DNA of 64,000 nt from Burkholderiales bacterium. Its GTDB lineage: Bacteria > Pseudomonadota > Gammaproteobacteria > Burkholderiales > Burkholderiaceae_C. Positions 3,418-17,466 of this stretch are shown piece by piece (the first letter of the stretch is position 1; each line of letters starts with the position of its first letter). The stretch is taken from positions 124,001 to 188,000 of the forward strand of contig JAFKGD010000002.1 in assembly GCA_017307855.1 (NCBI GenBank), in the 5' to 3' direction. The notes under the pieces are model-generated. The model was not told the origin of the DNA. It ran no database searches and worked only from the letters and a program-made list of their open reading frames with translations. The position numbers and the translations under genes were made by a program.

Positions 3418-5574
3418 ATGCTCGCCGGCATGAAATCGCTCGCGGCCTGGCGGCCGCCGTTCTTCGTCGCGCTCGAGGGCGCGGGCTTCGCGGTGCCCGT
3501 GGCGGTGGGCGCGGTCGCCCTGCTGTTCTCGCGCATCGGGGGCGACTTCCTGATGCCGGGCCTGCTGGCCGCGCTGGCGGGGATGGCGCTGATGCACGTG
3601 GCCACGGCGCGTGCCGGACGGCGCATGGTGTATGCCGCCCGCGTGCTCGAGGTGACGATGATGCTGGGCTTCCTGGAGGGCTTCATCCTCAAGATGCCCG
3701 GCTGGGGCCTGGCCGACACGCCTGCCCACCGGCTCATGCTGGTGATGGCGGTGAGCCTGGGCACGGCTTTGCTGCTGCCGCTGGCCTATGCGCTGCGGCT
3801 GCAGCGCTTTGCGCGCATGATTCCCTCGCCCGTGTTCGCGGGCTTCAACTGCGCGCTGGGCGTCACGCTGTTCGTGTCGCAGGGCGCCGTGCTGTGGCAA
3901 AGCCGCGCGGCCGATGGCCTGTGGTTCGCGCTGGTGGCCTTCGTCGTGCTGGTCGCCGCCATCGCCACGCAGGCCTGGGCCACGCGCTGGGCGCCGGGCA
4001 CGCTGGGCATCGCCGTAGGCGCCGTGCTCGCGGCGGTGCTGGCGTTGGCCGGCGTGCACACGCTGTCACCGGTGATCTCCGGGCATGTGGTGCTGGCGCT
4101 GCCCGTGGGCATGGCGCCGTGGGCAGACCTGTGGGCGCCGGGCGTCGCCACCGGGCTGCTGCTGAGCGACGTGTTCCTGTGCAGCGCCACGCTGGCCGTG
4201 CTGGTGTTCCTCAATTCCGTGGTGAATGAAGAAGCGGTGACGCAGCTCGACGGCGCCCAGCCGCGTCCGCACGACTGGGTGGCACCGTCGCTGGCGCGGC
4301 TGGTGGCCAGCGCGGCCGGCTCGCCCGTGCTCACGCCCACCATCGGCGCTTCGCGCGCCGCCGTCCGCGTGGGCACGCTGGACACCCGCGCGATGGGTCT
4401 GGTCGCCGCGCTCACACTCGCGGTGCTGGCCAGCGGGCTGCTGGCGTGGGTGCCGCTGGCTGCCATCTGCGGGCTGCTGCTGTACGACGGCTGGACGGCG
4501 TTCGACCGGCCCGCGCTGCGGCTGGCGCGCCGCTGGGCCCGGCGCCGCCCCATGGCCATGACCGACAAGGAAGACCTGGCCACCATCGGCCTGGTGATCG
4601 TCGCGGCTGTGGCCTTCGACATGGTGATCGGCGTGCTGGTGGGCATCTTCGCGGGGCTGTTGCTGTACGCCTGGCGCAACGGCCGCCGCCTGGCGCGCTC
4701 GGTCGACACCGGCGCCACCGTGCGTTCCAACTGCGTGCGCTCCGCCGCCGAGGCCGCCGTGCTGGCCGAACAGGGCGAGCGCGTACGGCTGGTGGTGCTG
4801 GAAGGCGCGCTGTTCTTCGGCGCGGCCAGCGGTCTCAAGGGCCTGCTGCTCGAGCAATGCGCTGCCGGCCGCAGCGTGGTGGTGGACTGGTCGCACGTGG
4901 TGAATGCCGACAGCACGGTGGCGCGCGCCGTGGTGCAGGTGTCGCGCGATGCCGCCGCGCTGGGCACCGCGATGGCTTTCTGCGGGCTCGATTCGACCGC
5001 GCCCCAGGTGGGCGAGACGCTCACCTCGGCGGGGCTCGATCTGCCGGAGTTTCCCGACGTCGATCGCGCGCTCGAATGGGCCGAGAACCGGGTGCTGCAA
5101 GGCGTGCTGCGCCCCGCCTCGCTGGAAGGCACGGCACTGCAGGATGCGCTGACCCTGCTGTCCGGGCTCAGTCAGGAGCACCGCGACGCGTTCGAGACAC
5201 AACTGGAACAGCGCTACTTCCGCGCCGGCGAGACAGTGTTCGAGGCCGGCCAGCGCGACAGCGAGCTGATGGTGATCCTGCAGGGCAGCGTCGACATCCT
5301 CGTGCCGCATGCCGCGGGCGACCGCAACGTGCGCCTGGCCCGCCTGCGCCGTGGCGCGCTGCTGGGAGAACTGAGCTTCCTCGATGCCACGGCGCGCGCC
5401 GCCACCGCCGTGGCCACCGAAGACCTGCTGCTGGGCGTGCTCTCGCGCGAACGCTTCGAGGCTTTCGCGCGGCAATGGCCCGATGCCGGCCGCCACGTGC
5501 TGGCCAACCTGGCGCTGGATCTCGCGTTCCGGCTGCGCCGTACCAACCACCTGGCGGCGAGCCATCTGCGCTGA
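3418..5574 (+). CDS. SulP-family anion transporter with STAS and cyclic-nucleotide-binding-like domains
   Basis: An inner-membrane SLC26/SulP-type transporter of 718 residues. Roughly residues 1-420 form the hydrophobic transport core with many membrane helices. A STAS-like domain follows at about 445-560 (RLVVLEGALFFGAASGL, VVVDWSHVVNADST). The last 150 residues resemble a Crp-type cyclic-nucleotide-binding domain (YFRAGETVFEAGQRDSELM, GALLGELSFLDATARAATA). Substrates of the family include sulfate, bicarbonate and dicarboxylates; nothing here fixes the choice. An alternative start is ATG 3430 (MKSLAAW). It is divergent from alaS and ends 20 bp before an IclR regulator. The C-terminal domain suggests transport is gated or tuned by a bound nucleotide or other effector, which is inference. 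Confidence 0.88.
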   Translation: MLAGMKSLAAWRPPFFVALEGAGFAVPVAVGAVALLFSRIGGDFLMPGLLAALAGMALMHVATARAGRRMVYAARVLEVTMMLGFLEGFILKMPGWGLADTPAHRLMLVMAVSLGTALLLPLAYALRLQRFARMIPSPVFAGFNCALGVTLFVSQGAVLWQSRAADGLWFALVAFVVLVAAIATQAWATRWAPGTLGIAVGAVLAAVLALAGVHTLSPVISGHVVLALPVGMAPWADLWAPGVATGLLLSDVFLCSATLAVLVFLNSVVNEEAVTQLDGAQPRPHDWVAPSLARLVASAAGSPVLTPTIGASRAAVRVGTLDTRAMGLVAALTLAVLASGLLAWVPLAAICGLLLYDGWTAFDRPALRLARRWARRRPMAMTDKEDLATIGLVIVAAVAFDMVIGVLVGIFAGLLLYAWRNGRRLARSVDTGATVRSNCVRSAAEAAVLAEQGERVRLVVLEGALFFGAASGLKGLLLEQCAAGRSVVVDWSHVVNADSTVARAVVQVSRDAAALGTAMAFCGLDSTAPQVGETLTSAGLDLPEFPDVDRALEWAENRVLQGVLRPASLEGTALQDALTLLSGLSQEHRDAFETQLEQRYFRAGETVFEAGQRDSELMVILQGSVDILVPHAAGDRNVRLARLRRGALLGELSFLDATARAATAVATEDLLLGVLSRERFEAFARQWPDAGRHVLANLALDLAFRLRRTNHLAASHLR

Positions 5575-5594: not shown

Positions 5595-6362
5595 ATGCCT
5601 TCCTTCTCCCCCATCCGTGCTGTCGAACGCGCCATCGACGTGCTGCTGGCACTGAACCGGCATCCCGTCAGCTCGCTCGACCTGCTGCACAAGCAGACCG
5701 GCATTCCCAAGCCCACGCTCGTTCGCCTGCTCGAAACGCTGCAGTCCAAGGGGCTGGTGAGCCATGCGCCGCAGTACGGCGCGTACAGCCTGGCCTCGGG
5801 CGCCAAGACGCTGTCGTCGGGCTATCACGGCGAGCCGCGCATCGTCGAGGCCTCGGCGCAGCTGGCCGACGAACTCACGCGCAAGATCAAGTGGCCGCTG
5901 GCCGTGGCCGTGCCCGACTACGACGCGGTCATCGTGCGCTACAGCACCATCCCCAATTCGCCGCTGGCGCTGCTGCACTCCACCATCAACATGCGCCTGT
6001 CGCTGGTGGGGCGCGCACTGGGCCGCGCCTACCTGGCCTTCTGCAGCGCGCAGGAGAGCCGAGCGCTGTTCGACATCCTGAAGCTCTCGACGCACCCCGA
6101 GGATGTCCTGGCGCACGACCGGCGCGCCATCGGCGCGATGCTGCGGCAGATCCGCCAGCAGGGCTATGCCCTGCGCTCGCCGGGCATCCGGCCGGTGTCG
6201 GGCACGCTGGCCGTGCCGGTGTTCGAGGGCCGGCGCGTGGTGGCCACCATCGGCATGACCTGGATCGCGTCCACGCTCACCAACGAGCAGGCGGTCGAAA
6301 AGTACCTGGCGCCGATGCAGGAACTCTCGCGCGGCGTGAGCGAGAAGCTGGCCACGCTCTGA
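5595..6362 (+). CDS. IclR-family transcriptional regulator (MhpR-like)
   Basis: A 255-residue IclR-type regulator. It has an N-terminal winged helix (IRAVERAIDVLLALNRH, TGIPKPTLVRLLETLQSKG) followed by the GAF-like effector domain (about 80-250), with the family-typical LSLVGRALGRAYLAF and the late GTLAVPVFEGRRVVATIGM. The ATG follows a GAGGAG ribosome site with normal spacing. Members of this branch control aromatic or organic-acid catabolism, often as effector-dependent activators or repressors. It lies just upstream of a palindrome at 6397-6417 that also occurs in front of two other units in this region. It is therefore the best candidate to bind that site (inference). Confidence 0.93.
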   Translation: MPSFSPIRAVERAIDVLLALNRHPVSSLDLLHKQTGIPKPTLVRLLETLQSKGLVSHAPQYGAYSLASGAKTLSSGYHGEPRIVEASAQLADELTRKIKWPLAVAVPDYDAVIVRYSTIPNSPLALLHSTINMRLSLVGRALGRAYLAFCSAQESRALFDILKLSTHPEDVLAHDRRAIGAMLRQIRQQGYALRSPGIRPVSGTLAVPVFEGRRVVATIGMTWIASTLTNEQAVEKYLAPMQELSRGVSEKLATL

Positions 6363-6396: not shown

Positions 6397-6417
6397 TTTT
6401 TCATTCGTTGAAAAGTC
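6397..6417. promoter_or_regulatory. Palindromic operator, copy 1 (upstream of the ketopantoate-reductase-like gene)
   Basis: TTTTCA-TTCGT-TGAAAA at 6398-6414, followed by GTC, lies in the 134-bp gap after the IclR gene and 80 bp before the ATG at 6497. The same half-sites with the same 5-nt spacer recur at 7528-7544 and 16244-16260. This argues for one regulator binding all three. Confidence 0.65.
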
Positions 6418-6496
6418 CGCAAATCGGCATTGCAGCCGCAGGCCTTCGCCGCGAACAATCCGCCGCTTCCCCCACAAGAATCACCGGAGACACGGC

Positions 6497-7510
6497 ATGA
6501 CCTCCACCCCCACGCCTGCGGGCACGCGCCATCGCATCGGCATCGTCGGCGCGGGCGCCATCGGTGGCCATGTGGCCGCGCGCCTGTCGGCCGCCGGCCA
6601 CGACGTGACGCTGCTGGCGCGCGGAGCCACGCTGCAGGCGCTGCGCACGTCGGGCCTGCGTTACGCCACGGGCGGGCAGGCACCAGTGCGGCACGAGGTG
6701 CGCGCCGAATCCAGCCCGGCCGCCATAGGCGCGCAGGACCTGGTGATCCTCACGCTCAAGTCGCAGGCCATTCCGGCCGTCGCGCCCACACTGGCACCGC
6801 TGCTGGCCGACAGCACGCCCGTGCTCACGCTGAACAACGGCCTGCCGTGGTGGTACTTCCTGGTGCCGGGCGTGCCGCAATCCGGCCTGCGCCTGGCCAG
6901 CGTCGACCCGGGTGGCGTGACCGAGAGCGCCATCGGCCTGTCGCGCGTGCTGGGCGGCACCATCATGGCGTCGTGCCACTGCCCCGAGCCCGGCGTGGTG
7001 GCCCACGGCGCGGGCGGCCGCATCGCGCTGGGCGAGCCGGCTGGTGGCACCAGCGAGCGCGCGACGCACTGGGCCGGCGTGCTGGCCCGGGCCGGCCTCG
7101 GGGCCGTCGCCAGCCCGCAGGTGCGCAGCGACCTGTGGCTCAAGCTGCTGGGCAACGTGTGCTCCAACCCGCTGTCGCTGCTCACCGGCGTGACCACCGA
7201 CCGCATGCTCGACGACGCCGGCGTGCGCGCGCTGTTCGCCAGCATGATGGACGAGTGCATCGCGCTGGGCCGCCGGCTGGGCCTGACGATCGAGACCGAC
7301 GCGGCGCAGCGCATGGCGCAGACGCGGCAACTGGGCGCCATCCGCAGCTCGATGCTGCAGGACCTGGAAGGCGGCCGCAGCGTCGAGCTCGACGCGATCC
7401 TGGGCGCGCCCATCGAATGTGCGCTTGCCATCGGCCACGGCGTGCCGCGCCTGCAGGACGTGTATGCGCTGGCCCGCCTGCGCGCCGCCGGCGCCGGGCT
7501 CTATCCCTGA
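6497..7510 (+). CDS. Ketopantoate reductase family (ApbA/PanE-like) oxidoreductase
   Basis: A 337-residue cytoplasmic NAD(P)H-dependent 2-oxoacid reductase of the PanE/ApbA family. The N-terminal Rossmann motif reads GIVGAGAIGGHVAARL (residues 15-30). The cofactor-side LNNG motif is at 112-115. The C-terminal helical domain contains the family Lys at about residue 216 in LWLKLLGNVCSNPLSLLTG, with the Asn/Ser cluster that binds substrate. True PanE makes pantoate, but this copy sits among catabolic genes behind an IclR regulator and a shared operator. A different 2-oxoacid or 2-hydroxyacid substrate is therefore likely. It forms a probable unit with the downstream aminotransferase and Bug receptor, although the aminotransferase has its own operator copy. 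Confidence 0.85.
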   Translation: MTSTPTPAGTRHRIGIVGAGAIGGHVAARLSAAGHDVTLLARGATLQALRTSGLRYATGGQAPVRHEVRAESSPAAIGAQDLVILTLKSQAIPAVAPTLAPLLADSTPVLTLNNGLPWWYFLVPGVPQSGLRLASVDPGGVTESAIGLSRVLGGTIMASCHCPEPGVVAHGAGGRIALGEPAGGTSERATHWAGVLARAGLGAVASPQVRSDLWLKLLGNVCSNPLSLLTGVTTDRMLDDAGVRALFASMMDECIALGRRLGLTIETDAAQRMAQTRQLGAIRSSMLQDLEGGRSVELDAILGAPIECALAIGHGVPRLQDVYALARLRAAGAGLYP

Positions 7511-7521
7511 GCGAAGCGTCG

Positions 7522-7550
7522 TCCGACTTTTCTGCTGATGAAAAGTCGGA
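7522..7550. promoter_or_regulatory. Palindromic operator, copy 2 (upstream of the PLP aminotransferase)
   Basis: A 29-bp dyad with perfect 11-bp arms, TCCGACTTTTC at 7522-7532 and GAAAAGTCGGA at 7540-7550, around a 7-nt centre. It lies in the 161-bp gap between the ketopantoate-reductase-like gene and the aminotransferase. Its core matches the copies at 6398 and 16244. It could also form an RNA hairpin, but no T tract follows, so an operator is favoured over a terminator. Confidence 0.65.
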
Positions 7551-7671
7551 AATGTGCAATTGCCCACGGCCCGATCCGCGGGAAAGAATCCGCACAGGCA
7601 TCCACACCGGCCCACCGGTGCAACAACGACAACGAGAGAGACAGCGCCGCGCCGCGGCGAACACACCCCGC

Positions 7672-8853
7672 ATGGATTCGTCCGCCCCCTTCCGCCTGGC
7701 GCAACGCGCCGCGCGCATCCGCCCCTCCATCATTCGTGAAATCCTCAACCTGGCGGCACGCCCCGGCGTGATCTCGCTGGCCGGCGGCCTGCCTTCGCCC
7801 GACGTCTTCCCGGTCGAGCGCATCCGCACGGCCGTCGACACGGTGCTGCGCGAATCGCCACGCGAGGCCCTGCAATACGCACCCACCGAAGGCTACGCGC
7901 CGTTGCGCGAATGGGTGGCGCGCCAGCTGTCGCAACACCAGGGCCTGAAGGTCGAAGCGTCCGATGTGCTGATCACCATCGGCTCGCAGCAGGGGCTCGA
8001 CCTGATCGGCAAGGCCCTGCTCGACCCCGGCAGCACCGTGGCCGTGGAAACGCCCACCTACGTGGGTGCGCTGCAGGCCTTCAATCCCTACGAAGCCGCC
8101 TACGCCAGCGTGCCGGGCGACGCGGAAGGCCCCCTCCCCGAAGCGCTGCAGGGCGTGCGCGACGCGCGCTTCCTCTACCTGGTGCCCAACTTCCAGAACC
8201 CCACCGGCGCCTGCATCGGCGAAGCGCGCCGCGCGGCGCTGGCCGATGCGGCGCGCGCCGCCGGCCTGCCGCTGGTGGAAGACAACCCGTACGGCGAGCT
8301 GTGGTTCGACGCGCCGCCGCCACGCTCGATCAGCTCGCACTGGCCCGAGGGCAGCGTGTACCTGGGTTCGTTCTCCAAGATCCTCTCGCCCGGCCTGCGG
8401 CTGGGCTATGTGGTGGCGCCGCGCACACTGATGCCCAAGCTGGTGCAGGCCAAGCAGGCGGCCGACCTGCACACCCCCATCTTCAACCAGCACATCGTGC
8501 ACCGCATGGTGAGCAGTGGCCTGCTGGATGACCACGTGCCGCTGATCCGCCAGCGCTACCGGGAGCAGCGCGATGCCATGCAGCAGGCGCTGCAACGCCA
8601 CCTGGGCGACCGCTGCCGCTGGACGGTGCCGGGCGGCGGCATGTTCTTCTGGGTGGAAGTGCCCGAAGGCATCGACACCATGGCGCGGCTGGAGACCGCC
8701 GTCGCCGCCGGCGTGGCGTACGTGCCGGGCTTCGCGTTCTATGCCGACCAGTCGCGCCACAACCTGCTGCGGCTGTCGTTCGTGACTGTCTCGCCCGAGC
8801 AGATCGACCGCGGCGTGGGCCTGATGGCGCGCGCGCTCGGCCTGTCGCACTGA
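7672..8853 (+). CDS. PLP-dependent aminotransferase, 2-aminoadipate/LysN type (fold I)
   Basis: A 393-residue class I/II aminotransferase close in style to LysN-type and MocR-related enzymes. It opens with ISLAGGLPSPDVFP, typical of that branch. It carries the YAPTEGYAPLREW segment, the ITIGSQQGLDLIGKALLDPG cofactor loop, the VPNFQNPTG motif, and the Schiff-base lysine K236 in GSFSKILSPGLRLG. A C-terminal Arg in LLRLSFV should bind the substrate carboxylate. It transfers an amino group between an amino acid and a 2-oxoacid; the substrate cannot be told. There is no fused GntR domain. It is preceded by its own copy of the shared palindrome and followed after 71 bp by a Bug receptor. Confidence 0.9.
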   Translation: MDSSAPFRLAQRAARIRPSIIREILNLAARPGVISLAGGLPSPDVFPVERIRTAVDTVLRESPREALQYAPTEGYAPLREWVARQLSQHQGLKVEASDVLITIGSQQGLDLIGKALLDPGSTVAVETPTYVGALQAFNPYEAAYASVPGDAEGPLPEALQGVRDARFLYLVPNFQNPTGACIGEARRAALADAARAAGLPLVEDNPYGELWFDAPPPRSISSHWPEGSVYLGSFSKILSPGLRLGYVVAPRTLMPKLVQAKQAADLHTPIFNQHIVHRMVSSGLLDDHVPLIRQRYREQRDAMQQALQRHLGDRCRWTVPGGGMFFWVEVPEGIDTMARLETAVAAGVAYVPGFAFYADQSRHNLLRLSFVTVSPEQIDRGVGLMARALGLSH

Positions 8854-8924
8854 CAACCAGAAGACGCGCAGCCAGCGCGCGATCACAACGAGAACCCCAT
8901 CCAGAAAGACGAAGGAGACAGACC

Positions 8925-9899
8925 ATGCAACGCAGACAGTTTTCGACCCGCCTGGTGGCCCTGGCCGCCACCGCCGCCGTGGGCGCGCCCGCGCTGGCGC
9001 AGGACGCCGGCCCCACCCGCATCCTCGTGGGCTTCGCGCCCGGCGGATCGGTGGACGTGGTGGCTCGCCTGCTGGCCGACAAGCTCAAGGACGTGCTGGG
9101 CACGCAGGTGATCGTGGAGAACAAGCCCGGAGCCACCGGCCGCGTGGCGCTGGCCGAGGCGCAGCGCTCGCGCCCCGACGGTCGCACGCTGGTGATGGCG
9201 GCCGGCGGCGCGATGGTCATTTTCCCCTGGCTCTATCCCACCAACCTGGGCTACGACCCGGTGAAGGATTTCACCCCCATCTCGCGCGTGACCACGCTGG
9301 GCTTCACCATCGCCGTCGGCCCCGCCGCGCCGGTCACCGACATGAAGGGCCTGATCGCGTGGCTGCGCGCCAACCCGAACAAGGCGATGTACGCCACGTC
9401 GGGCGCGGGCTCGGTGCCGCACTTCGCGGGCCTGCTGCTGGGCCAGACGCTGGGGCTCACGCTCAATCACGTGGCCTACAAGGGCAATGCGCTGGCCGAG
9501 CAGGACCTGGTCGGCGGCCACATCCCGATGCTGATCGACAGCCCCACCGGCACCACGATCGACCTGCACAAGAGCGGCAAGCTGCGCATCGTCGCCGTCA
9601 CCGGCAAGGCGCGCCTGCCGGCGCTGCCCGACGTGCCCACGCTGCAGGAAGCCGGCGTCGATCTCGCGATCGACAACTTCTTCGGCCTGTACGGCCCGGC
9701 CGGCATCCCGGCCGACACGCTGGCTCGCCTCGACCGCGCCGTGGCGCAGGTGCTGTCGCAGAAGGATGTACGCGACAAGATCCTGGCCGCCGGGCTGCTG
9801 CCGGATCACGGCAGCTCGCAGGAACTGGCCGCCATGCAGGCCATGCAGCTCAAGCGCTGGGAAGCGCCGATCAAGAGTTCGGGGTTCAAGGTGGAGTGA
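8925..9899 (+). CDS. Bug/TctC-family periplasmic solute-binding protein
   Basis: A 324-residue tripartite tricarboxylate transporter receptor. A signal peptide (RRQFSTRLVALAATAAVGAP, cleaved near ALAQ) is followed by the two-lobed Bug fold with the family signatures ILVGFAPGGSVDVVARLLA, VENKPGATGRVA and NHVAYKGNALAEQDLVGG. Bug proteins bind carboxylated ligands such as citrate, aromatic acids or amino acids. No TctA/TctB membrane genes lie nearby, as is common in this order, so it may use a permease encoded elsewhere or act as a sensor. An AAGGAG site precedes the ATG. It follows the aminotransferase and probably ends that transcript. Confidence 0.93.
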   Translation: MQRRQFSTRLVALAATAAVGAPALAQDAGPTRILVGFAPGGSVDVVARLLADKLKDVLGTQVIVENKPGATGRVALAEAQRSRPDGRTLVMAAGGAMVIFPWLYPTNLGYDPVKDFTPISRVTTLGFTIAVGPAAPVTDMKGLIAWLRANPNKAMYATSGAGSVPHFAGLLLGQTLGLTLNHVAYKGNALAEQDLVGGHIPMLIDSPTGTTIDLHKSGKLRIVAVTGKARLPALPDVPTLQEAGVDLAIDNFFGLYGPAGIPADTLARLDRAVAQVLSQKDVRDKILAAGLLPDHGSSQELAAMQAMQLKRWEAPIKSSGFKVE

Positions 9900-9985
9900 A
9901 GCGTTGCCGATCATGCCGCTGCGCTTCTGGAACGTCGGCGCAGCGGTTCGTGGTGCACAGGTCGCGGTCGCAGGGTGACCGCCTC

Positions 9986-10196
9986 CGCTCGTGTCCCCCG
10001 GCCTTCGGCCTCCTCCTTTACCTCGCTGCGCCGGTCACCCTACGCCCACGACGGGCCGCGTCGCGCGAACAGTCACGAACCCGAACTCCAGCATCACTTT
10101 GAAGCCTCTGCGCACCACGCCGTAATGGATCGACGTGGCAGTGGTGCCTTGCAAAGCGAGGTCAAGGAGGAGGCCGAAGGCCGGGGGACACGAGCG
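9986..10196. repeat. 42-bp inverted repeat pair flanking about 127 bp
   Basis: The arm at 9986-10027 is the reverse complement of the arm at 10155-10196 with a single mismatch in 42 positions (a T in the left arm replaces a G). Each arm contains the mini-hairpin GGCC-TTC-GGCC. The left arm is further enclosed by AGGGTGACCG and CGGTCACCCT. The sequence is intergenic, between convergent genes, which fits a dispersed REP/BIME-like or MITE-like element. No transposase gene is attached and no target-site duplication was recognised. Confidence 0.75.
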
Positions 10197-10286
10197 GCGC
10201 AAGGCTCCGCTGGCGCGGCGATCGAGGCGCACTAGCGGCGCCGCAGTGACGCCGCCTTCACCTCCAGCACGCATCAACAGGACAAC

Positions 10287-10315
10287 AAAAAAAGGCGCCT
10301 CGAGGGCGCCTTCTT
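10287..10315 (-). terminator. Intrinsic terminator of the cupin-gene operon
   Basis: On the minus strand AAGGCGCC, the loop CTCGA and GGCGCCTT are followed by a run of T residues (the A tract at 10287-10293 on the plus strand). This is a textbook rho-independent terminator 19 bp past the stop of the cupin gene at 10334. Confidence 0.85.
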
Positions 10316-10333
10316 GCGTGCGATGAACAGGCC

Positions 10334-11200
10334 TCAGGCCGCCACCGTCTCCTCCGGCATCGGGTACTCGTCCTGGTTGCAGACGACGCCCTTCTTCGAG
10401 AAGTCCATGCGCGGCGGCGCGAAGATGTCGATCAGCACGCCGGGTTCGTTGCCGATGTTGCGGCTGGTGTGAATGACCTTGGGCGGCACCACGAGCAGCG
10501 AAGGGCTGCCCATCTCGCCGGCCTCGTCGTCGCGCCACAGCGTCATGTCGGGACCCCACGGGTAGCGCATGTGATGCACGTAGGTGCCGCTCAATGCCAG
10601 CGAGCCCTGCTCGAAATCGGCGTGGCTGTGCGGGCTGAGCTTGGTCACGTCGCGCGCCACCATGCGCTTGAGCAGCGGATTCACCATCAGCTTGCGCGTG
10701 CGGAAGATGCGCATGTTGCTGCCCTCGCGCGCATAGTCGGCCAGCTTGTAGTGGCGCAGCTTGTAGCCGCCCACGGGCGCGGGCCATTCAACCAGCGGCG
10801 CGGCATCGGGGTTGGGCGTGGCGTAGGTGGCGGCGTTGTCGGCCAGGGCCGCGAGGTCGGTCACGTCGGCGCTGAAGATGCGCACGACCAGGCCGCTGCC
10901 CTGCACGGTGATGCGGCTGGCGCCGGGCGGCACGATGGTGAGGCTGTCGGCGCCGGCCGTCAGCTGTTCGCCGCCGGCTTCCACCGTGGCCGAGAGGCCG
11001 GGCGTATCCGGCAGCAGCAGCACGTACTCGTCGAGGTTGCCGGCACGCGAGAGCGTGTCGCCAGCGCTCGCGCGCGAGACGACGACGACGAAGTTGGCGC
11101 CGCGCGTGACCCACGAGGGCGCGGTGTCGCCGGCGATGGCCTGCGGCTCGCGCGCATGATGGCGCGAATAGGTGGCGATCTGGGAAGGAAGAAGCGGCAT
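10334..11200 (-). CDS. Cupin-domain protein of unknown function
   Basis: A 288-residue soluble protein with two weakly similar beta-barrel halves. The C-terminal half has cupin character (SPHSHADFEQGSLALSGTY, then a late PPKVIHTSRN), with His and Glu placed as metal ligands. The ATG at 11200 gives MPLLPSQIATYSRHH and ends an otherwise unlike upstream frame. No N-terminal signal is seen. Cupins in catabolic operons are often ring-cleaving dioxygenases, isomerases or ligand sensors; the exact reaction is not evident. It is the last gene of the series amidohydrolase, flavin reductase, HpcH/HpaI aldolase, cupin and is followed by an intrinsic terminator. Confidence 0.75.
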   Translation of the reverse strand: MPLLPSQIATYSRHHAREPQAIAGDTAPSWVTRGANFVVVVSRASAGDTLSRAGNLDEYVLLLPDTPGLSATVEAGGEQLTAGADSLTIVPPGASRITVQGSGLVVRIFSADVTDLAALADNAATYATPNPDAAPLVEWPAPVGGYKLRHYKLADYAREGSNMRIFRTRKLMVNPLLKRMVARDVTKLSPHSHADFEQGSLALSGTYVHHMRYPWGPDMTLWRDDEAGEMGSPSLLVVPPKVIHTSRNIGNEPGVLIDIFAPPRMDFSKKGVVCNQDEYPMPEETVAA

Positions 11201-11231
11201 GGGCGGCTCTTTCGTTGCGGGTGTTCTTGAA

Positions 11232-11957
11232 TCAGGCGGCCGGATGCGCGATGGCGGCGGCGGCCGCGCGCAGCAGGGTCTGGTCGGAAGAGACGACGAA
11301 CCAGTCGGCGCCCAGGGCGGCGAACTGCTCGCGTTCGGCGTTGCCCGCCACGTGCATGCCGGCGATCTTGCCGGCCTGCTTCGCGGCTGCCAGCACGCGC
11401 GTGGTGGCAGCCAGCACCTTCTCGTCGCGCGGGCTGTCCAGGCCCATGGCCAGGGCCAGGTCGGCGCGGCCGACGAAGATGCCTGCCACGCCGGGCACGG
11501 CCAGGATGTCGTCAACGGCCTCCACGGCCTCGGGGCTTTCGATCTGGCAGATCACCTGCGCCTCGTCGCCGATGCGCAGGGCTTCCTTCATGCCCAGGCT
11601 GCCGTAGCCGGCGAAGCGCGGCGAGCTGGAAAAGCCCCGCGCGCCGTCCCTGTAGCGCGCCATGGCGACGACGGCGCGGGCCTGATCGGCACTGTCGATA
11701 TGCGGCACCAGCAGGCCGGCCGCACCGATGTCCAGCGCCGACAGCACGATGGCCGGGTTGACCTCGGCGATGCGGATGAACACGCGGATGCCGGCGGCGC
11801 GGCCGGCCATCACCATCAGGTCCAGCGTGGCGCGGTCGAACGGCGCGTGCTCGGCATCCACGCAGACGAAGTCGAGCGTGGTGGTGCCCAGCACTTCCAC
11901 GACGTGGGGCGAGGCGGTCTTGACGAAGGTTCCGAGTGTGGGCTTGGGCGAAGTCAT
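11232..11957 (-). CDS. HpcH/HpaI-family aldolase
   Basis: A 241-residue class II pyruvate-type aldolase of the HpcH/HpaI/citrate lyase beta family. It is a cytoplasmic metal-dependent enzyme that splits or forms 4-hydroxy-2-oxoacids. Family marks are CVDAEHAPFD near the N-terminus, GAAGLLVPHI, the metal-binding Glu in QIESPEAVE and the Asp in FVGRADLALAMG. HpaI-type enzymes release pyruvate plus an aldehyde. The length is slightly short of HpaI (about 260) but no domain is lost. It starts at ATG 11957, 19 bp after the flavin reductase, within an operon that includes an amidohydrolase. It probably performs the last carbon-carbon cleavage of that pathway (inference). Confidence 0.88.
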   Translation of the reverse strand: MTSPKPTLGTFVKTASPHVVEVLGTTTLDFVCVDAEHAPFDRATLDLMVMAGRAAGIRVFIRIAEVNPAIVLSALDIGAAGLLVPHIDSADQARAVVAMARYRDGARGFSSSPRFAGYGSLGMKEALRIGDEAQVICQIESPEAVEAVDDILAVPGVAGIFVGRADLALAMGLDSPRDEKVLAATTRVLAAAKQAGKIAGMHVAGNAEREQFAALGADWFVVSSDQTLLRAAAAAIAHPAA

Positions 11958-11976
11958 GGCGTCGATACGGAGGGGT

Positions 11977-12600
11977 TCACTTGGGCGGCTGCTGCAGTTG
12001 CGGCCGGTTGTAGAGCTCACCCAGCGCTGCATAAAGCGGGCCACCCAGGCGCGCGATGGGTTGCATCTTCACGCTGTCGACGTAGCGGCCGTCGAACACC
12101 GTGTCGGACAGGTGGAAGGCCAGCACCTCGCCCAGGTAGAGCGTGTTGAGCCCGCGCCCCAGTGGCAGGGCGCGCTCGAGCCTGCATTCCATGTGGATGG
12201 GCGACAGCGCCACGCGCGGCACGTTCACCGTCTGGCCGGGCAACAGCTCGATGCCCAGGGCCTCGCACTCGCTGGTCTCGCTCGGGAACTCGGCGCTGGT
12301 GCCATGCATGGCTTCCATGGTGTCCACGGTGGCCACGTTGATCACGAACTCACCGGTTTCGACGATGTTGCGCGCCGTGTCCTTCAACTCGCCATTGCGC
12401 GTGGCGATGTTGATGGCCACCATCGGCGGGCTGTGCGCCACGTAGTTGTACGAGCTGAACGGCGCAGCGTTCACCACGCCCGCCCGGCTGCGCGTGGTGA
12501 TCCAGGCGATGGGGCGCGGCACCACCATGCCCACCAGCAGCCGGTAGGCCGTGGGCGTGTCCAGTTGCGTGGCGTCGAGCGTGGTGTAGGTGTGCGCCAC
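11977..12600 (-). CDS. Flavin reductase family (DIM6/NTAB-type) FMN-binding protein
   Basis: A 207-residue split-barrel FMN protein. The typical N-terminal block YRLLVGMVVPRPIAWITT is followed by NAAPFSSYNYVAHSPPMV, which lines the flavin site, and a later central SPIHMECRLER strand. Such proteins supply reduced flavin to a monooxygenase or act as oxidoreductases themselves. A GTG start at 12600 lies 5 bp after the amidohydrolase stop with an AAGAAGG ribosome site inside that gene's end, implying translational coupling. No partner monooxygenase is encoded nearby, which is odd if it is only a reductase component. Confidence 0.87.
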   Translation of the reverse strand: MAHTYTTLDATQLDTPTAYRLLVGMVVPRPIAWITTRSRAGVVNAAPFSSYNYVAHSPPMVAINIATRNGELKDTARNIVETGEFVINVATVDTMEAMHGTSAEFPSETSECEALGIELLPGQTVNVPRVALSPIHMECRLERALPLGRGLNTLYLGEVLAFHLSDTVFDGRYVDSVKMQPIARLGGPLYAALGELYNRPQLQQPPK

Positions 12601-12605
12601 GGCGT

Positions 12606-13553
12606 TCAGGCCTTCTTGCGCGTACCGCCCTTCACGAACACGCGGCGGCCGGTGTCGTGGAAGAGCGCCTTCTTCTCGGCGTCGGTCAGCAACTCGGCCG
12701 AATCGAGCGCGCGCTGCACCATGTCCTTGTAGGTGCCCGAGGAAGTGCCGATGTCCGAGCCCCACATGATGCGGTCGGCGCCGTACATGTCGACGGCGCG
12801 GCGCAGCATCTGCTTGTCGTCGACGCCGCTCTCGCGGCAGATGTCGAGGTTGATGGACGTCCACTTGAACGAGATGTTCTTCACCGGCACCAGCGATTCG
12901 AAATGATGGTCCAGGCCGAAGTCGGCCGCGCCATGCTCGCACTCGGGCTCCAGCAGGTGGTCGAGCACGATGCGCACGTCGGGGTAGCGCTTCGAGAGCT
13001 CGATCAGCGCCGGGGCCGACGGGCCACCGCCGCCGACGGACAGCACCTCGATGTTCATCACCAGGCCATGCTCCTGCAGCACCTCCCAGCACTTGAGCGC
13101 CTGCGGCGAGTTGAGCCACGGCATGCCGCCGTCGGCGTCGCGTCCGCCGAACAGGCGCAGGCCCGAGAGGCCGTTGTCGCGGATCTGCGTACGGATCAGC
13201 TCCGGTGTGGTGGGGTCCGTCGCGTCCAGGATGACCACCGCCGCGAACGTGTCGGGGTGCGCATCGGACGAGTCCAGGATGTAGCTGTTGTCGTACTTGT
13301 AGACCATGCGCTTTTGCACGGCCACGGCGCCGTCGACGCCCTCTTCCTTCATCCACTGCAGCATGCGCGAGACGTCGGGCACCTCGTTGATCGGCTCGGG
13401 GCCGTGGTGGCCGCCGGGCGTGCCGATCACGCCGGGCAGACGCGGCGGCGCATTCGGCGCGCGCTTCTGGTAGTTGCGCGGGTACTTGGTCTGGTCGTCG
13501 GCGACCAGGTGCGCGTGGGCGTCATAGATCGGGGGGCGGGGCGAGGAGCTCAT
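12606..13553 (-). CDS. Amidohydrolase 2 family metal-dependent hydrolase
   Basis: A 315-residue TIM-barrel protein of the amidohydrolase superfamily (ACMSD/LigJ/LigI-like branch). The HxH metal motif is in YDAHAHL near the N-terminus. A central His lies in IVLDHLLEPE and the catalytic Asp in MWGSDIG near residue 270. Relatives hydrolyse lactones, hydrate 4-oxalomesaconate or decarboxylate aromatic acids. With the downstream aldolase, hydrolysis or hydration followed by aldol cleavage is plausible, but the substrate is not visible. It is the first gene after the hairpin at 13584-13607 and may be transcribed by read-through from the hydro-lyase genes or from its own promoter. Confidence 0.88.
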   Translation of the reverse strand: MSSSPRPPIYDAHAHLVADDQTKYPRNYQKRAPNAPPRLPGVIGTPGGHHGPEPINEVPDVSRMLQWMKEEGVDGAVAVQKRMVYKYDNSYILDSSDAHPDTFAAVVILDATDPTTPELIRTQIRDNGLSGLRLFGGRDADGGMPWLNSPQALKCWEVLQEHGLVMNIEVLSVGGGGPSAPALIELSKRYPDVRIVLDHLLEPECEHGAADFGLDHHFESLVPVKNISFKWTSINLDICRESGVDDKQMLRRAVDMYGADRIMWGSDIGTSSGTYKDMVQRALDSAELLTDAEKKALFHDTGRRVFVKGGTRKKA

Positions 13554-13583
13554 CGGAACGGCTTCAGGAGTTGAAAGGGGAAA

Positions 13584-13607
13584 TCGCGGCCCCGCTCGGG
13601 GCCGCGA
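13584..13607 (-). terminator. GC-rich hairpin after the Bug receptor gene
   Basis: A perfect 10-bp stem, TCGCGGCCCC at 13584-13593 with GGGGCCGCGA at 13598-13607, and a GCTC loop. On the minus strand it is followed by TTTCCCCTTTC, so it resembles an intrinsic terminator. It splits the minus-strand series into an upstream (hydro-lyase, Bug) and a downstream (amidohydrolase to cupin) part, perhaps partially. Confidence 0.65.
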
Positions 13608-13619
13608 CGCAGGGCGTGC

Positions 13620-14603
13620 TTATTGCAGCTGGATGTTGGCCGTCTGGATGACCTTCTGCCACTTCTTGGAATCTTCGTTCATCAGCGTGCGCAGGTGTTC
13701 CGGCGGGCCGGCATTCACCACGGCGCCGTATTGCTGCAGCTTGGCGCGGCCGTAGGTGGAGCCCAGGATGAGGTTGATCTCCTCGTTGAGCTTCTTGACG
13801 ACGTCGGGCGGCGTGCCGGCCGGGCCCACCACGGCGAACCACACGGTGGCCACCATGTCGATGCCCTGCTCCTTCGCCGTCGGGATCTCGGGCAGGCCGG
13901 GAAAGCGCGTGTTCGACGTCACCGCCAGACCCCGCAGCTTGTCGGCGCTGAGGTTGGGGATGAAGGCCGTGATCGGGGCCGAGCTGGCCTGGATGCTGCC
14001 GCCCAGCAGGTCGGTCATCATCGGCGTGTCGCCGCGGTACGGTGCGGTGGTGAGCTTGGTCTTCGTGACCATCGCGAGCTGCTCGGCCGCCAGATGGCCG
14101 ATGGTGCCGTTGCCGGGCTGGCCCACGGTGTAGTCCTGCGGCTTGGCCTTCGCGGCGGCCACGAACTCCTTGAGGTTCTTCGCCGGCACGCGCGGGTTGG
14201 CGGCGATCACCAGCGGGATCTCGCACACCAGGGCGATGGGGGCCAGATCTTTCTCGGAGTCGAAGGGCATCGACTTGTAGAGGAACTTGTTGTTGACCAG
14301 CGGGCCCGAGGTCGACAGGCCGATCGTGTAGCCATCGGGCGCGGCCTTGGCCACGGCGTCGGTGCCGATGTTGCCGCCCGCACCACCGCGGTTGTCCACG
14401 ATGAATTGCTGGCCGAGCTTGTCGGACAGGCCCTGCGCGATGTAGCGCGCCACCAGATCGGTGCTGCCGCCGGCCGGGAACGGCACGATGATGCGCACGG
14501 GCTTGTTGGGCCAGGCCTGCTGTGCCAGGGCAGGTGCGGCGCCGGCCACACCCAAGGCCATGGCAACGGCGGCGGCGACGGAATGGAAGTTTCTGCGGTT
14601 CAT
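13620..14603 (-). CDS. Bug/TctC-family periplasmic solute-binding protein
   Basis: A 327-residue Bug receptor. The ATG at 14603 (MNRRNFHSVAAAVAMALG) is chosen because an AAGGAGACC ribosome site precedes it and the signal peptide then starts normally; cleavage is expected near ALAQQAWP. Signatures of the family are present: IIVPFPAGGSTDLVARYIA, VDNRGGAGGNIGTDAV and TAPYRGDTPMMTDLLGG. It lies 36 bp after the hydro-lyase beta gene on the same strand, so the likely ligand is the dicarboxylate or hydroxyacid that the hydro-lyase acts upon. No TctAB permease is encoded here. Confidence 0.93.
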   Translation of the reverse strand: MNRRNFHSVAAAVAMALGVAGAAPALAQQAWPNKPVRIIVPFPAGGSTDLVARYIAQGLSDKLGQQFIVDNRGGAGGNIGTDAVAKAAPDGYTIGLSTSGPLVNNKFLYKSMPFDSEKDLAPIALVCEIPLVIAANPRVPAKNLKEFVAAAKAKPQDYTVGQPGNGTIGHLAAEQLAMVTKTKLTTAPYRGDTPMMTDLLGGSIQASSAPITAFIPNLSADKLRGLAVTSNTRFPGLPEIPTAKEQGIDMVATVWFAVVGPAGTPPDVVKKLNEEINLILGSTYGRAKLQQYGAVVNAGPPEHLRTLMNEDSKKWQKVIQTANIQLQ

Positions 14604-14639
14604 GAGGGTCTCCTTGGGTAAAGCGGAAAGGGCCACGCC

Positions 14640-15278
14640 TCAGGCGCGCGTGGCCGACGCATCGGCGGCCCGGGCCGCGCGCATGCGTTCGAGAATGTCC
14701 GGCAGGCGGCCGTGGGCGCGTGCGCCCACCTGGTCGTAGGCGCTGCCGCCGTGCGCGTCGATCGCGACGGTGGCCGGGCCCATCGCCGACACGTCGAGCG
14801 TGAGCAGGCGGAATTGCGAGATGTATTCGTTCCAGTGCGAGCTGGCCACGCCGCGCAGCGCGCGCGACAGCAACGGCGCGCCACCGCCCAGGAACGACAG
14901 GTAGGCGCAACCGCATTCCTTCAGGGCCGTGACGCTGGCGTCGTCGAGCCCGCCCTTGCCGCCCACCAGGCGCAGCCCCAGGCCGCGCACAATGTCGGGC
15001 ATCCAGGCGTTGTAGCGGGTGCTGGTGCTCGGGTTCAGGTAGAGCGGCACTTTCACACCGTCCTGCTCGCGCACGTACGTGGAAAGATGGAAGAACGCGC
15101 CGCCGTTCAGGTCGATGGGTAGCGGCTGGCCGCTCCTGGCGGCCTCGGCCATGCGCTTGTGCGTGGGAATGCCAATGCTCACCGTCACCTGGCCGGTGAG
15201 CGTGACCATGTCGCCCACGCGCAGCTCGCGCACGCGCTCGGGCGACAGCGGCAGGGTGAGTTCGTGCAGGCGGCTCAT
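14640..15278 (-). CDS. Class I fumarase/tartrate dehydratase family, beta subunit
   Basis: A 212-residue swivelling-domain subunit of the iron-sulfur fumarate/L-tartrate dehydratase family. Characteristic are LRVGDMVTLTGQVTVSIGIPTHKRM near the start (RDAAH position replaced by PTHKRM), DLNGGAFFH, and a late DAHGGSAYD. It pairs with the alpha subunit 16 bp upstream. The ATG at 15278 is chosen over a longer frame that merely runs antisense to nothing recognisable. The family adds or removes water across a 2-hydroxy-dicarboxylate. The replacement of usual residues suggests a substrate other than fumarate or tartrate. Confidence 0.87.
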   Translation of the reverse strand: MSRLHELTLPLSPERVRELRVGDMVTLTGQVTVSIGIPTHKRMAEAARSGQPLPIDLNGGAFFHLSTYVREQDGVKVPLYLNPSTSTRYNAWMPDIVRGLGLRLVGGKGGLDDASVTALKECGCAYLSFLGGGAPLLSRALRGVASSHWNEYISQFRLLTLDVSAMGPATVAIDAHGGSAYDQVGARAHGRLPDILERMRAARAADASATRA

Positions 15279-15294
15279 CGGGCGGTCTCCACCA

Positions 15295-16167
15295 TCACCA
15301 TTGCAGGTCTTCCACGCGGCCATCGTTGTAGATGCGCGCGGCCGTGCGCCGGTTGATCCAGCAGTTGAAGCACACGGCCACCGGCACGAAGCCATGGCTG
15401 GCCGAGTATTCGACGTTCACAGCCATGGCGCTCATGTCGCCGCCCGTGCCCATGGCCCCCAGGCCGGTTTCGTTGATGGCATCGAGCAGACGCTTTTCCA
15501 TGCCCGCCAGCAACGCATCGGGCTGCGGCTTGCCGTGCGGGCGCAGCACCGCTTCCTTGGCCAGGCGCGTGGCCTGGTCGAACGTGCCGCCGATGCCCAC
15601 GCCCACCACGATGGGCAGGCACGGCTGCGAGCCGGCGCGCAGCACCACGTCCATCACGTATTTCTCGACGTCTTCGACCGTGGGATAGACGAAGGCTTCC
15701 ACGGCTTCCCAGCGCCCGGTGCCCATGGCCTTGGGCGCGCAGACGATGTCCATGTAGTCGGCATCGTCGATCACGTCGAAGGACACCAGGGGAATGTCCT
15801 TGCCCGCGTGGCTGCGCTCGTGCGTGAGCGGGTGCGTGATCATCTTGAGGATGGGCGGGTTCATGCCCGCGGCCAGCTCGGCGAAGCCGTCGGTGATGGC
15901 CTGGCGCACGGGCCCGTCGAACTGCACGCGCGTGCCGATCTTGATGCTGTAGGTGGGCAGGCCCACGTCGCTGCAGACCAGTTGCCCGTCGTCGCGTGCC
16001 GCATCGGCGCTCTCGATCATCACGGTGAGCGTGCGGCGCGCCGTGCCGTCCGTCTCGGCCTGCTGCGCGCGGCCGAGGATGGCTCGGGTGTCGTCGGGAA
16101 TTTTCTTGAGCGAGCGCTCGTAGAGCGACGCGGTGACCCGCTTGATGAGGGCACTGGAGATGGGCAT
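15295..16167 (-). CDS. Class I fumarase/tartrate dehydratase family, alpha subunit ([4Fe-4S])
   Basis: A 290-residue catalytic subunit of a [4Fe-4S] hydro-lyase. Candidate cluster ligands are C65 (VCSDVGLPTY), C183 (CLPIVVGVGIGG) and C266 or C269 (VCFNCWINRR), in the order seen in TtdA/FumA. The usual CQDTG around the first cysteine reads CSDVG, a notable change. The ATG at 16167 gives a normal family N-terminus (MPISSALIKRVTASLYERS); GTG 16197 would add ten residues. Together with the beta gene it forms the heteromeric enzyme. A copy of the shared palindrome lies 77-93 bp upstream of this start, so it probably belongs to the same regulon as the genes at 6.5 and 7.7 kb. Confidence 0.87.
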   Translation of the reverse strand: MPISSALIKRVTASLYERSLKKIPDDTRAILGRAQQAETDGTARRTLTVMIESADAARDDGQLVCSDVGLPTYSIKIGTRVQFDGPVRQAITDGFAELAAGMNPPILKMITHPLTHERSHAGKDIPLVSFDVIDDADYMDIVCAPKAMGTGRWEAVEAFVYPTVEDVEKYVMDVVLRAGSQPCLPIVVGVGIGGTFDQATRLAKEAVLRPHGKPQPDALLAGMEKRLLDAINETGLGAMGTGGDMSAMAVNVEYSASHGFVPVAVCFNCWINRRTAARIYNDGRVEDLQW

Positions 16168-16482
16168 CGGTGGGGCTGACTTTTTGTCTCTTGGCACGGA
16201 GGATGCGCGCCTGCGCCCGATGTTTCAAGGCGAATTTCCCGACTTTTCAAGCAATGAAAAACTCCGGGGCGTGTGGGGAAGGGTTTTCCCGCGCCCGGCC
16301 GCGCGTCGGGGAAAGCCCACCGATGCGTCCAGGAAAAGCACGGATTCGTCCTAGCCCGGTCGCCGCGACCTGCCTAGCATGCGCCGCATGACATCCGGAA
16401 AGAAACCGACGGAACAGATCGCGCACGAGCGCAGCCCCGTGATGCACTTGCCCACGCCTGGCGCAACGGAGCGCGGCCCGAC
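16168..16482. other. Divergent intergenic region between the hydro-lyase and D-2-hydroxyacid dehydrogenase genes
   Basis: About 315 bp (285 if the GTG start of the alpha subunit is used). It contains the shared palindrome at 16244-16260 close to the minus-strand gene. Promoters for both directions must lie here, but I cannot define -35/-10 pairs with confidence. The remainder shows GC-rich sequence without a convincing small gene. Confidence 0.5.
16241..16263. promoter_or_regulatory. Palindromic operator, copy 3 (upstream of the hydro-lyase genes)
   Basis: TTTTCA-AGCAA-TGAAAA at 16244-16260 with GAC before and ACT after. The half-sites and 5-nt spacer equal those at 6398 and nearly equal those at 7528. 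It sits 77 bp upstream of ATG 16167 in the orientation of the hydro-lyase genes. Confidence 0.65.
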
Positions 16483-17466
16483 ATGAAGATCGCCATCCTC
16501 GACGACTACCAGGACGCCGTGCGCACGCTGGCGTGCTTCAGCCTGCTGCAGGGACACGAGGTGCAGGTGTGGACCGACCACACCGAGGACACCGACACGC
16601 TGGCCAGGCGGCTCGCCGACACCGAGGTGCTCGTCATGCTGCGCGGTCGCACGCCGATCCGGGCCGCGCTGCTGGAGCGGCTGCCGCAACTGCGCTTCAT
16701 CAGCCAGAGCGGGCACACCGATCACATCGACCTGGCGGCCTGCGCGCGGCTGGGCGTCGTGGTGTCGGCCATCTCGGCCACCCGGCCTTCTTATGCGACG
16801 GCCGAGCTGACCTGGGGGCTGATCCTGGCCGCCCAGCGCCACCTCGTCTTCGAAGTTTCCGCGCTCAGGGCCGGCCGCTGGCAATCCACACTCGGCCAGG
16901 GCCTGCGCGGCCACACGCTGGGCATCTACGGCTTCGGCCGCATCGGCGCGCTGGTGGCGGGCTATGGTCGGGCCTTCGGCATGAACGTGCAGGTGTGGGG
17001 CCGCGAGTCGACCCTGGACAAGGCGCGCGAAGCCGGCCATGCCGTGGCCGCGAGCCGGGCCGAGTTCTTCGCGACCAGCGATGTGCTGTCGCTGCACGTA
17101 CGCTACTCGCCCGCCACGCGGCATCTCGTGACGCGCGAGGATCTGGCCCGCATGAAGCCGGGCGCGCTCTTCGTCAACACCAGCCGCGCGGAACTGGTCG
17201 AGCCCGGCGCGCTGGCGCAGGCACTCGCGCTCGGGCGTCCAGGCCGCGCGGCCGTGGACGTCTACGAAGTCGAGCCCGTGCCGGCCGGCCAGCCGCTGCT
17301 GGCGCTGGACAACGCGCTGTGCACGCCGCACCTGGGCTACATCGAACGCGACAGCCATGAGTTCGCGTTCGGCAACGCGTTCGAGCAGGTGCAGGCCTAT
17401 GCGCGCGGCGAACCCATCAACGTCTGCACGCCGCAGGCGGCGCGCCATCCGGCCACCGCAGCGTGA
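16483..17466 (+). CDS. D-2-hydroxyacid dehydrogenase family protein
   Basis: A 327-residue NAD-dependent dehydrogenase of the D-isomer-specific 2-hydroxyacid family. The N-terminus reads MKIAILDDYQDAV. The Rossmann motif is GIYGFGRIGALVAGYGRAFG (about residues 147-166). Catalytic Arg lies in FVNTSRAELV, Glu in VYEVEPV and His in CTPHLGYIE. It interconverts a 2-oxoacid and a D-2-hydroxyacid in the cytoplasm. It stands divergent from the hydro-lyase and 31 bp before a Bug receptor, which suggests a joint role in using an imported hydroxyacid. Confidence 0.92.
   Translation: MKIAILDDYQDAVRTLACFSLLQGHEVQVWTDHTEDTDTLARRLADTEVLVMLRGRTPIRAALLERLPQLRFISQSGHTDHIDLAACARLGVVVSAISATRPSYATAELTWGLILAAQRHLVFEVSALRAGRWQSTLGQGLRGHTLGIYGFGRIGALVAGYGRAFGMNVQVWGRESTLDKAREAGHAVAASRAEFFATSDVLSLHVRYSPATRHLVTREDLARMKPGALFVNTSRAELVEPGALAQALALGRPGRAAVDVYEVEPVPAGQPLLALDNALCTPHLGYIERDSHEFAFGNAFEQVQAYARGEPINVCTPQAARHPATAA

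Follow-up and report, generated by a model that had tools for sequence, protein, structure and literature searches.

Do three metabolic promoters spread over 10 kb of a Burkholderiales genome answer to the same regulator, and which other genes would it control? This question is raised by a stretch of 64,000 nucleotides (hereafter the window, which has a G+C content of 69%; positions 124001-188000 of contig C6 of a 5.0 Mb genome). An earlier note on this DNA had described a palindromic operator in front of three genes, and had proposed that the product of an adjacent IclR-family gene (positions 5595-6362) binds all of them. The sequence comparisons reported here indicate that this IclR protein is very probably an MhpR-like activator, which would bind a shared operator at five promoters of one regulon. 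Three scattered gene groups of unclear function could then be tested as a single regulon, for which the regulator and five promoters are named. In the following, C2, C3, C6, C11, C13 and C16 are contigs of this genome, L designates loci and G designates genomes of the family.

The operator sites

The pattern TTTTC-N7-GAAAA is present without mismatch at the three places where it had been reported (6398-6414, 7528-7544 and 16244-16260). As claimed, each site is intergenic and precedes a metabolic gene, coding for a ketopantoate-reductase-like (KPR) protein, a pyridoxal-phosphate (PLP) aminotransferase and the alpha subunit of a hydro-lyase, and these gene families are backed by Pfam. With up to two mismatches the window holds these three places alone (6 rows over both strands); 100 dinucleotide shuffles gave 0.27 on average, and none reached 6. 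The earlier note had judged chance an unlikely source of the sites. The copy at 7522-7550 does have perfect 11-base arms, TCCGACTTTTC / GAAAAGTCGGA. The GTC/GAC flanks ascribed to all three copies are complete in this one, but the first site lacks the left GAC and the third the right GTC. The window scan found no copy with up to two mismatches ahead of the IclR gene.

The whole genome was searched with the pattern at one mismatch, which covers every exact pair of arms. The exact palindrome occurs at five places in 5.0 Mb, the three window sites and two sites on another contig (C16:20293-20309 and C16:20381-20397). All five are intergenic and face a start codon; the motif is neither frequent in the genome nor placed in coding regions, and this check, named in the earlier note, favours its proposal. 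The two C16 sites, which go beyond the earlier note, are flanked on one side by a leftward aldehyde dehydrogenase gene and on the other by a rightward row encoding a Bug protein, two MaoC proteins, an acyl-CoA ligase and a short-chain dehydrogenase/reductase (SDR), the Bug and MaoC identities being assigned by eye. Five further places match with one mismatch (C6:119275, C11:156453, C11:243655, C13:147 and C13:34737). C11:156453 was rejected as a regulon site, being located just behind a stop codon and ahead of a G+C-rich, terminator-like hairpin.

When turned towards the gene, the sites of this genome are followed by exactly 15 nt and then TTG in five of five cases. A composite pattern, the palindrome with TTG after 15 nt, is likewise exact at these five places only; with two mismatches allowed it matches 26 rows, and the reversed pattern used as control matches 5. 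At the third window site, a point that the earlier note did not include, this spacing is present on the hydro-lyase side only. Regulation of the divergent dehydrogenase gene at 16483 from this site was rejected, as no TTG lies at the fixed distance on that side.

Conservation in related genomes

When named genomes were scanned with the IclR protein, 55 loci were obtained, and 22 of these (L075-L096) contain close relatives with 54-75% identity. The exact motif is present 18 times in the 22 loci (in 10 of them), where first-order Markov resampling predicts 0.05, and all 18 sites are at promoters of the cluster and face gene starts. Lack of conservation upstream of orthologous genes had been named as a finding that would speak against the proposal; conservation beside orthologous IclR genes was found in several genera. 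Exact copies precede the hydro-lyase alpha gene in nine loci (L076-L080, L082-L084 and L096, from Verminephrobacter, Variovorax and Pigmentiphaga-type bacteria), the aminotransferase gene in both Variovorax loci and an amidohydrolase-IclR gene pair in six Pigmentiphaga-type loci, and L090 has one between the IclR and KPR genes. One-mismatch copies are located before hydro-lyase alpha in two other Comamonadaceae (L075 and L091) and before the aldolase gene in two Achromobacter loci. The closest relative (G422, 78% identity) carries an exact copy before its hydro-lyase gene.

The spacing is conserved as well. It was counted on 29 family sites (16 non-redundant) picked by the palindrome alone, with at most one mismatch and facing a gene. 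TTG stands at offset 15 in 22 of the 29 and in 14 of the 16, and no other offset occurs more than twice. This count left out nine one-mismatch matches in L075-L098 that are unassigned to a promoter (L075:3438, L080:1794, L082:4093, L091:8403, L093:3637 and two each in L097 and L098), as well as C6:119275, an exact site in L181 and the sites with variant arms. At three places, L077:14120 and L078:14169 (both Variovorax) and L076:4829, a single operator is flanked in both directions by TTG at a distance of 15 nt; the gene opposite the hydro-lyase in L077 is, by eye, apparently that of a porin.

More diverged relatives without the exact motif have in its stead a palindrome whose two arms have changed in a compensating way, and the spacing is kept. 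The mirrored variant TTTCC-N7-GGAAA lies directly behind the IclR gene in all five Pseudacidovorax loci, with the same spacing, and before the amidohydrolase gene of G080, with the 15-nt gap and TTG. The same gap and TTG follow ATTCC-N7-GGAAT in G321 (L171) and an imperfect ATTCC-N7-GGAAA in G328. The search criterion for the variant arms included TTG or a similar triplet (TTG for most of them, and for the L181 site), but those of Pseudacidovorax, G321 and G328 were also seen by reading the intergenic DNA.

Copies of the hydro-lyase gene inside and outside IclR clusters were compared in a family set of 399 genomes. The IclR protein is present in 11 of them (E 1e-40 or better) and hydro-lyase alpha in 9, with 10 copies (E 1e-60 or better). 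Six copies belong to an IclR cluster; the module of palindrome, gap and TTG precedes the gene in G000, G422, G106 and G328 (with imperfect arms in the latter two) and stands at the head of the hydro-lyase gene row in G321 and G200. A one-mismatch module also precedes the copy of G209, which is on a contig other than that of its IclR gene. By contrast, the three copies away from IclR (G337, G092 and the second of G106) have no module within 1.5 kb, nor in 19.5, 5.5 and 19.5 kb.

Exact composite matches in IclR-bearing genomes other than our own are the G422 hydro-lyase promoter, one in G321 without visible relation and L181 in G209. The L181 module precedes the gene of an amino-acid ABC binding protein, which gives a sub-cut-off match to lysine/arginine/ornithine ABC binding proteins. 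Another set of 60 relatives has no close IclR protein (best 35% identity). A search of these with TTTTC-N7-GAAAAGTCSG at up to one mismatch gave matches in 29 of the 60, mostly one or two each, and outside our own genome the result was not clearly above the reversed control.

Several observations weigh against a single conserved regulon. Three of the 22 loci (L081, on a short contig, L093 and L095) have no assignable site, and G422 has none between IclR and KPR. TTG is replaced at six Pigmentiphaga-type amidohydrolase promoters, by GTG in five and ATG in one, and is missing at offset 15 from the KPR site of a Rhodoferax metagenome-assembled genome. In our own genome, C6:119275 was rejected as a regulon site, as 25 nt separate its end from the start codon of a Bug gene and the promoter spacing is lacking. 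The exact composite pattern occurs in 36 of the 399 family genomes, mostly once, and 32 of these lack an IclR protein at E 1e-40, so that a lone match means little. The co-occurrence with IclR is partly built in, because the loci were found through the IclR gene, and the control outside IclR clusters consists of three hydro-lyase copies that are less similar (56-59%), one of them on a 5.5-kb contig.

The IclR protein and its probable mode of action

The window protein has both domains of its family, HTH_IclR (PF09339, 39.2 bits, cut-off 22) and IclR_C (PF01614, 41.2 bits, cut-off 24). It scores 345 bits with the NCBIfam model NF007342 (PRK09834.1-4; cut-off 251), which places it in the MhpR-like subgroup, and stays below the cut-offs of two other PRK09834 models. 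Its gene begins 20 nt behind a gene (window positions 3418-5574) for what appears by eye to be a SulP-type transporter with STAS and cyclic-nucleotide-binding end.

Weak -10-like boxes, as judged by eye, follow the TTG element 17-18 nt further on, and in eight of eight non-redundant hydro-lyase promoters the box reads CATNNT. The centre of the operator is 24 nt upstream of the first base of the -35-like element; if these are truly promoter elements, it would be at about -59 from the transcription start. The published centre of the MhpR operator is near -58. The E. coli mhpA promoter has the layout that we infer here: its 17-base palindrome is followed after 15 nt by a hexamer and after a further 17 nt by the -10 box TATACT. 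E. coli MhpR is 32% identical to the window protein over 227 residues. The two systems differ in the operator letters (GGTGCACCTGGTGCACA in E. coli versus TTTTC-N7-GAAAA), in the hexamer at the -35 place, which is ATTGTA and does not begin with TTG, and in extent: mhpR adjoins mhpA, while the present site is carried by at least five promoters, which are spread over two contigs and have other target genes. Orthology of the window protein with MhpR was rejected, on the different arms, the other target families and the 32% identity.

Taken together, the observed sites, their conservation and spacing, their co-occurrence with this IclR gene and, in another genome (see below), the location of C16-type genes beside the IclR cluster point to the following mechanism. 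The IclR protein would bind the 17-base palindrome as a dimer or tetramer. From about -59, and on sensing a compound of the pathway, it would help RNA polymerase at promoters with weak -10 boxes, as MhpR of E. coli. It would thereby drive the KPR gene, the aminotransferase-Bug gene pair, a seven-gene hydro-lyase operon, the C16 aldehyde dehydrogenase gene and the divergent C16 set for Bug, MaoC, MaoC, acyl-CoA ligase and SDR. An activator role is favoured from the position of the operator, and activation from about -59 because of the MhpR-like score, the identity with MhpR, the common layout with mhpA and the annotation of MhpR as an activator in E. coli.

The protein might instead bind the same sites as a repressor, to be released by an inducer, which we consider unlikely. 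The IclR family does include repressors, activators and dual-role proteins, as stated in PMC8222616, and the Pigmentiphaga-type amidohydrolase site, which is also ahead of the IclR gene itself, would fit autoregulation. However, the palindrome ends 15 nt upstream of TTG in 14 of the 16 non-redundant sites (of GTG in a fifteenth), which leaves the putative -35 and -10 elements uncovered, and the weakness of the -10 boxes and the same geometry at mhpA, next to a gene annotated as an activator, also argue for activation.

Binding by another regulator is more doubtful still. Candidates would be an IclR paralog on C2 (C2:391975-392709, locus L130; 56% identity), a PcaR-like IclR protein of C16 or another regulator of the window. 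The paralog is of the same subfamily and shares 50-61% identity with the protein of each locus as well. The PcaR-like gene is separated from the C16 sites by 2.4 kb, and in L075 and L167 such a gene is close to the IclR cluster. In most cases, however, the loci are nearest to the window protein, and the paralog has a cupin/flavin-reductase cluster of its own and presumably its own operator. GTTTC-N7-GAAAC followed by 15 nt and TTG is found exactly at two places of this genome (C2:386121-386155 and C3:35154-35188), both before Bug-type genes, with none for the reversed control, and the former falls inside the cluster of the paralog. Genes for relatives of the PcaR-like protein occur in 2 of 26 loci and those of four other window regulators in none of them (45% identity, E 1e-15), and PcaR-type motifs differ from the present one, as given in Table 1 of PMC8222616.

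It is hardly credible that the palindromes arose by chance or belong to terminators. Many genomes that lack the IclR gene do have a single exact composite match, and one near-match in our genome is beside a terminator-like hairpin, but the excess of exact sites facing gene starts in the relatives and the compensating changes in both arms at a fixed spacing speak against this reading.

Activation by the window IclR protein would fit a type of control that is already known. PMC8222616 (Suvorova and Gelfand 2021) describes, within IclR motif group 1, a 17-base subgroup WTT-11-AAW (WTTYCRYW3RYGRAAW). The five sites of our genome and the TTTCC and ATTCC variants share its length, its arms WTTYC/GRAAW and its 7-base gap, but by eye some do not follow the inner letters RYW3RY. 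The GTTTC-N7-GAAAC variant fits the subgroup GTT-11-AAC of the same source. The arms and the gap of the G321 site are identical to those of GenR of Corynebacterium glutamicum (ATTCC-N7-GGAAT, Table 1 of PMC8222616), a regulator from a distant organism whose targets are those of 3-hydroxybenzoate and gentisate. For the subgroup WTT-11-AAW, PMC8222616 names COG3618, COG2030 and COG3181 among the associated families. As far as seen, the regulon itself is new: no description of it was found in the literature searched, which included PMC12016517 and PMC8222616, the 181-group supplement of the latter being outside the search.

Target genes and a possible pathway

The coordinates of the regulator, the predicted targets and the sites in the window are given in Table 1. 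The Bug/TctC gene at 8925-9899 is probably in one operon with the aminotransferase gene, judging from their spacing. The ATG at 16170 is the likely start of hydro-lyase alpha because the putative promoter reaches 16200. The PDB relatives of the aldolase do not name its substrate, and the amidohydrolase has no PDB relative at 1e-5. Among the proteins encoded behind the five operators are an amidohydrolase, MaoC proteins and Bug proteins, which we take to be of the COG3618, COG2030 and COG3181 kind.

Table 1. Genes, operators and putative promoter elements in the window
Feature	Position	Strand	Basis
IclR-family regulator, MhpR-like, proposed binder of all sites	5595..6362	+	Pfam, NCBIfam, relatives beside motif
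Operator 1, TTTTC-N7-GAAAA	6398..6414	+	Before KPR gene; sequence match
Putative KPR promoter: -35 TTGCAG 6430-6435, -10 GAACAAT 6453-6459	6430..6459	+	Sequence alignment
KPR protein (ApbA/PanE)	6497..7510	+	Pfam PF02558, PF08546
Operator 2, perfect 11-base arms, core 7528-7544	7522..7550	+	Before aminotransferase gene; sequence match
Putative aminotransferase promoter: -35 TTGCCC 7560-7565, -10 AAAGAAT 7583-7589	7560..7589	+	Inferred
PLP-dependent aminotransferase, class I/II	7672..8853	+	Pfam PF00155
Bug/TctC periplasmic binding protein	8925..9899	+	Pfam PF03401
Cupin-like protein, last gene of presumed hydro-lyase operon	10334..11200	-	Weak Cupin_2 below cut-off; conserved in cluster
HpcH/HpaI aldolase	11232..12044	-	Pfam PF03328; PDB relatives 2-dehydro-3-deoxygalactarate and HpaI aldolases
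Flavin-reductase-like protein	11977..12609	-	Pfam PF01613
Amidohydrolase-2 family protein, lactonase-like	12606..13553	-	Pfam PF04909; weak match to L-fucono-1,5-lactonase model, far below cut-off
Second Bug/TctC-like binding protein	13620..14636	-	tblastn relation to other Bug proteins; conserved cluster place
Hydro-lyase beta subunit (TtdB/FumA C-terminal type)	14640..15278	-	TIGR00723 below cut-off; start set against L178
Hydro-lyase alpha subunit (fumarase/tartrate dehydratase type)	15295..16170	-	Pfam PF05681; TIGR00722 above cut-off; start as in L178
Putative hydro-lyase operon promoter: -35 TTGAAA 16228-16223, -10 CATCCT 16205-16200	16200..16228	-	CATNNT conservation
Operator 3	16244..16260	-	Before hydro-lyase operon; sequence match

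The inclusion of the C16 genes is supported by G080, since genes of the C16 type (aldehyde dehydrogenase, 83% identity; Bug, 78%; MaoC, 62% and 57%; ligase, 54%) lie there beside those for IclR, amidohydrolase, flavin reductase, aldolase and cupin, and the promoter of the C16-type Bug gene has an imperfect variant site with the same spacing (found with TTG in the search criterion). The genes behind the five promoters would form one catabolic pathway. Judging from the enzymes, it may transaminate or reduce a 2-oxo acid and include the opening of a lactone, dehydration, aldol cleavage and CoA-dependent steps. The identity of the inducer would name this pathway in several Burkholderiales genera.

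More generally, and quite tentatively, the MhpR branch may share one rigid arrangement (palindrome, 15 nt, -35, 17 nt, -10) between E. coli and Burkholderiales, with arm letters that drift mirror-wise, so that its regulons could be read from sequence alone. Here such a reading would bring to light a pathway not described before, with about 16 genes spread over two contigs, in which a CoA-ligase module is combined with an aminotransferase, a hydro-lyase, a lactonase-like amidohydrolase and an HpaI-type aldolase. The spacing rule could be used for finding the targets of related regulators.

One further feature of the operators was noted by eye. At many sites an A-rich stretch (AAAT or GAAT) lies about 10 nt behind the right arm (in the window within 6415-6429, 7545-7559 and 16229-16243), which may represent a third half-site, of the sort described in the case of PcaU, or else be contacted by the alpha subunit of the polymerase.

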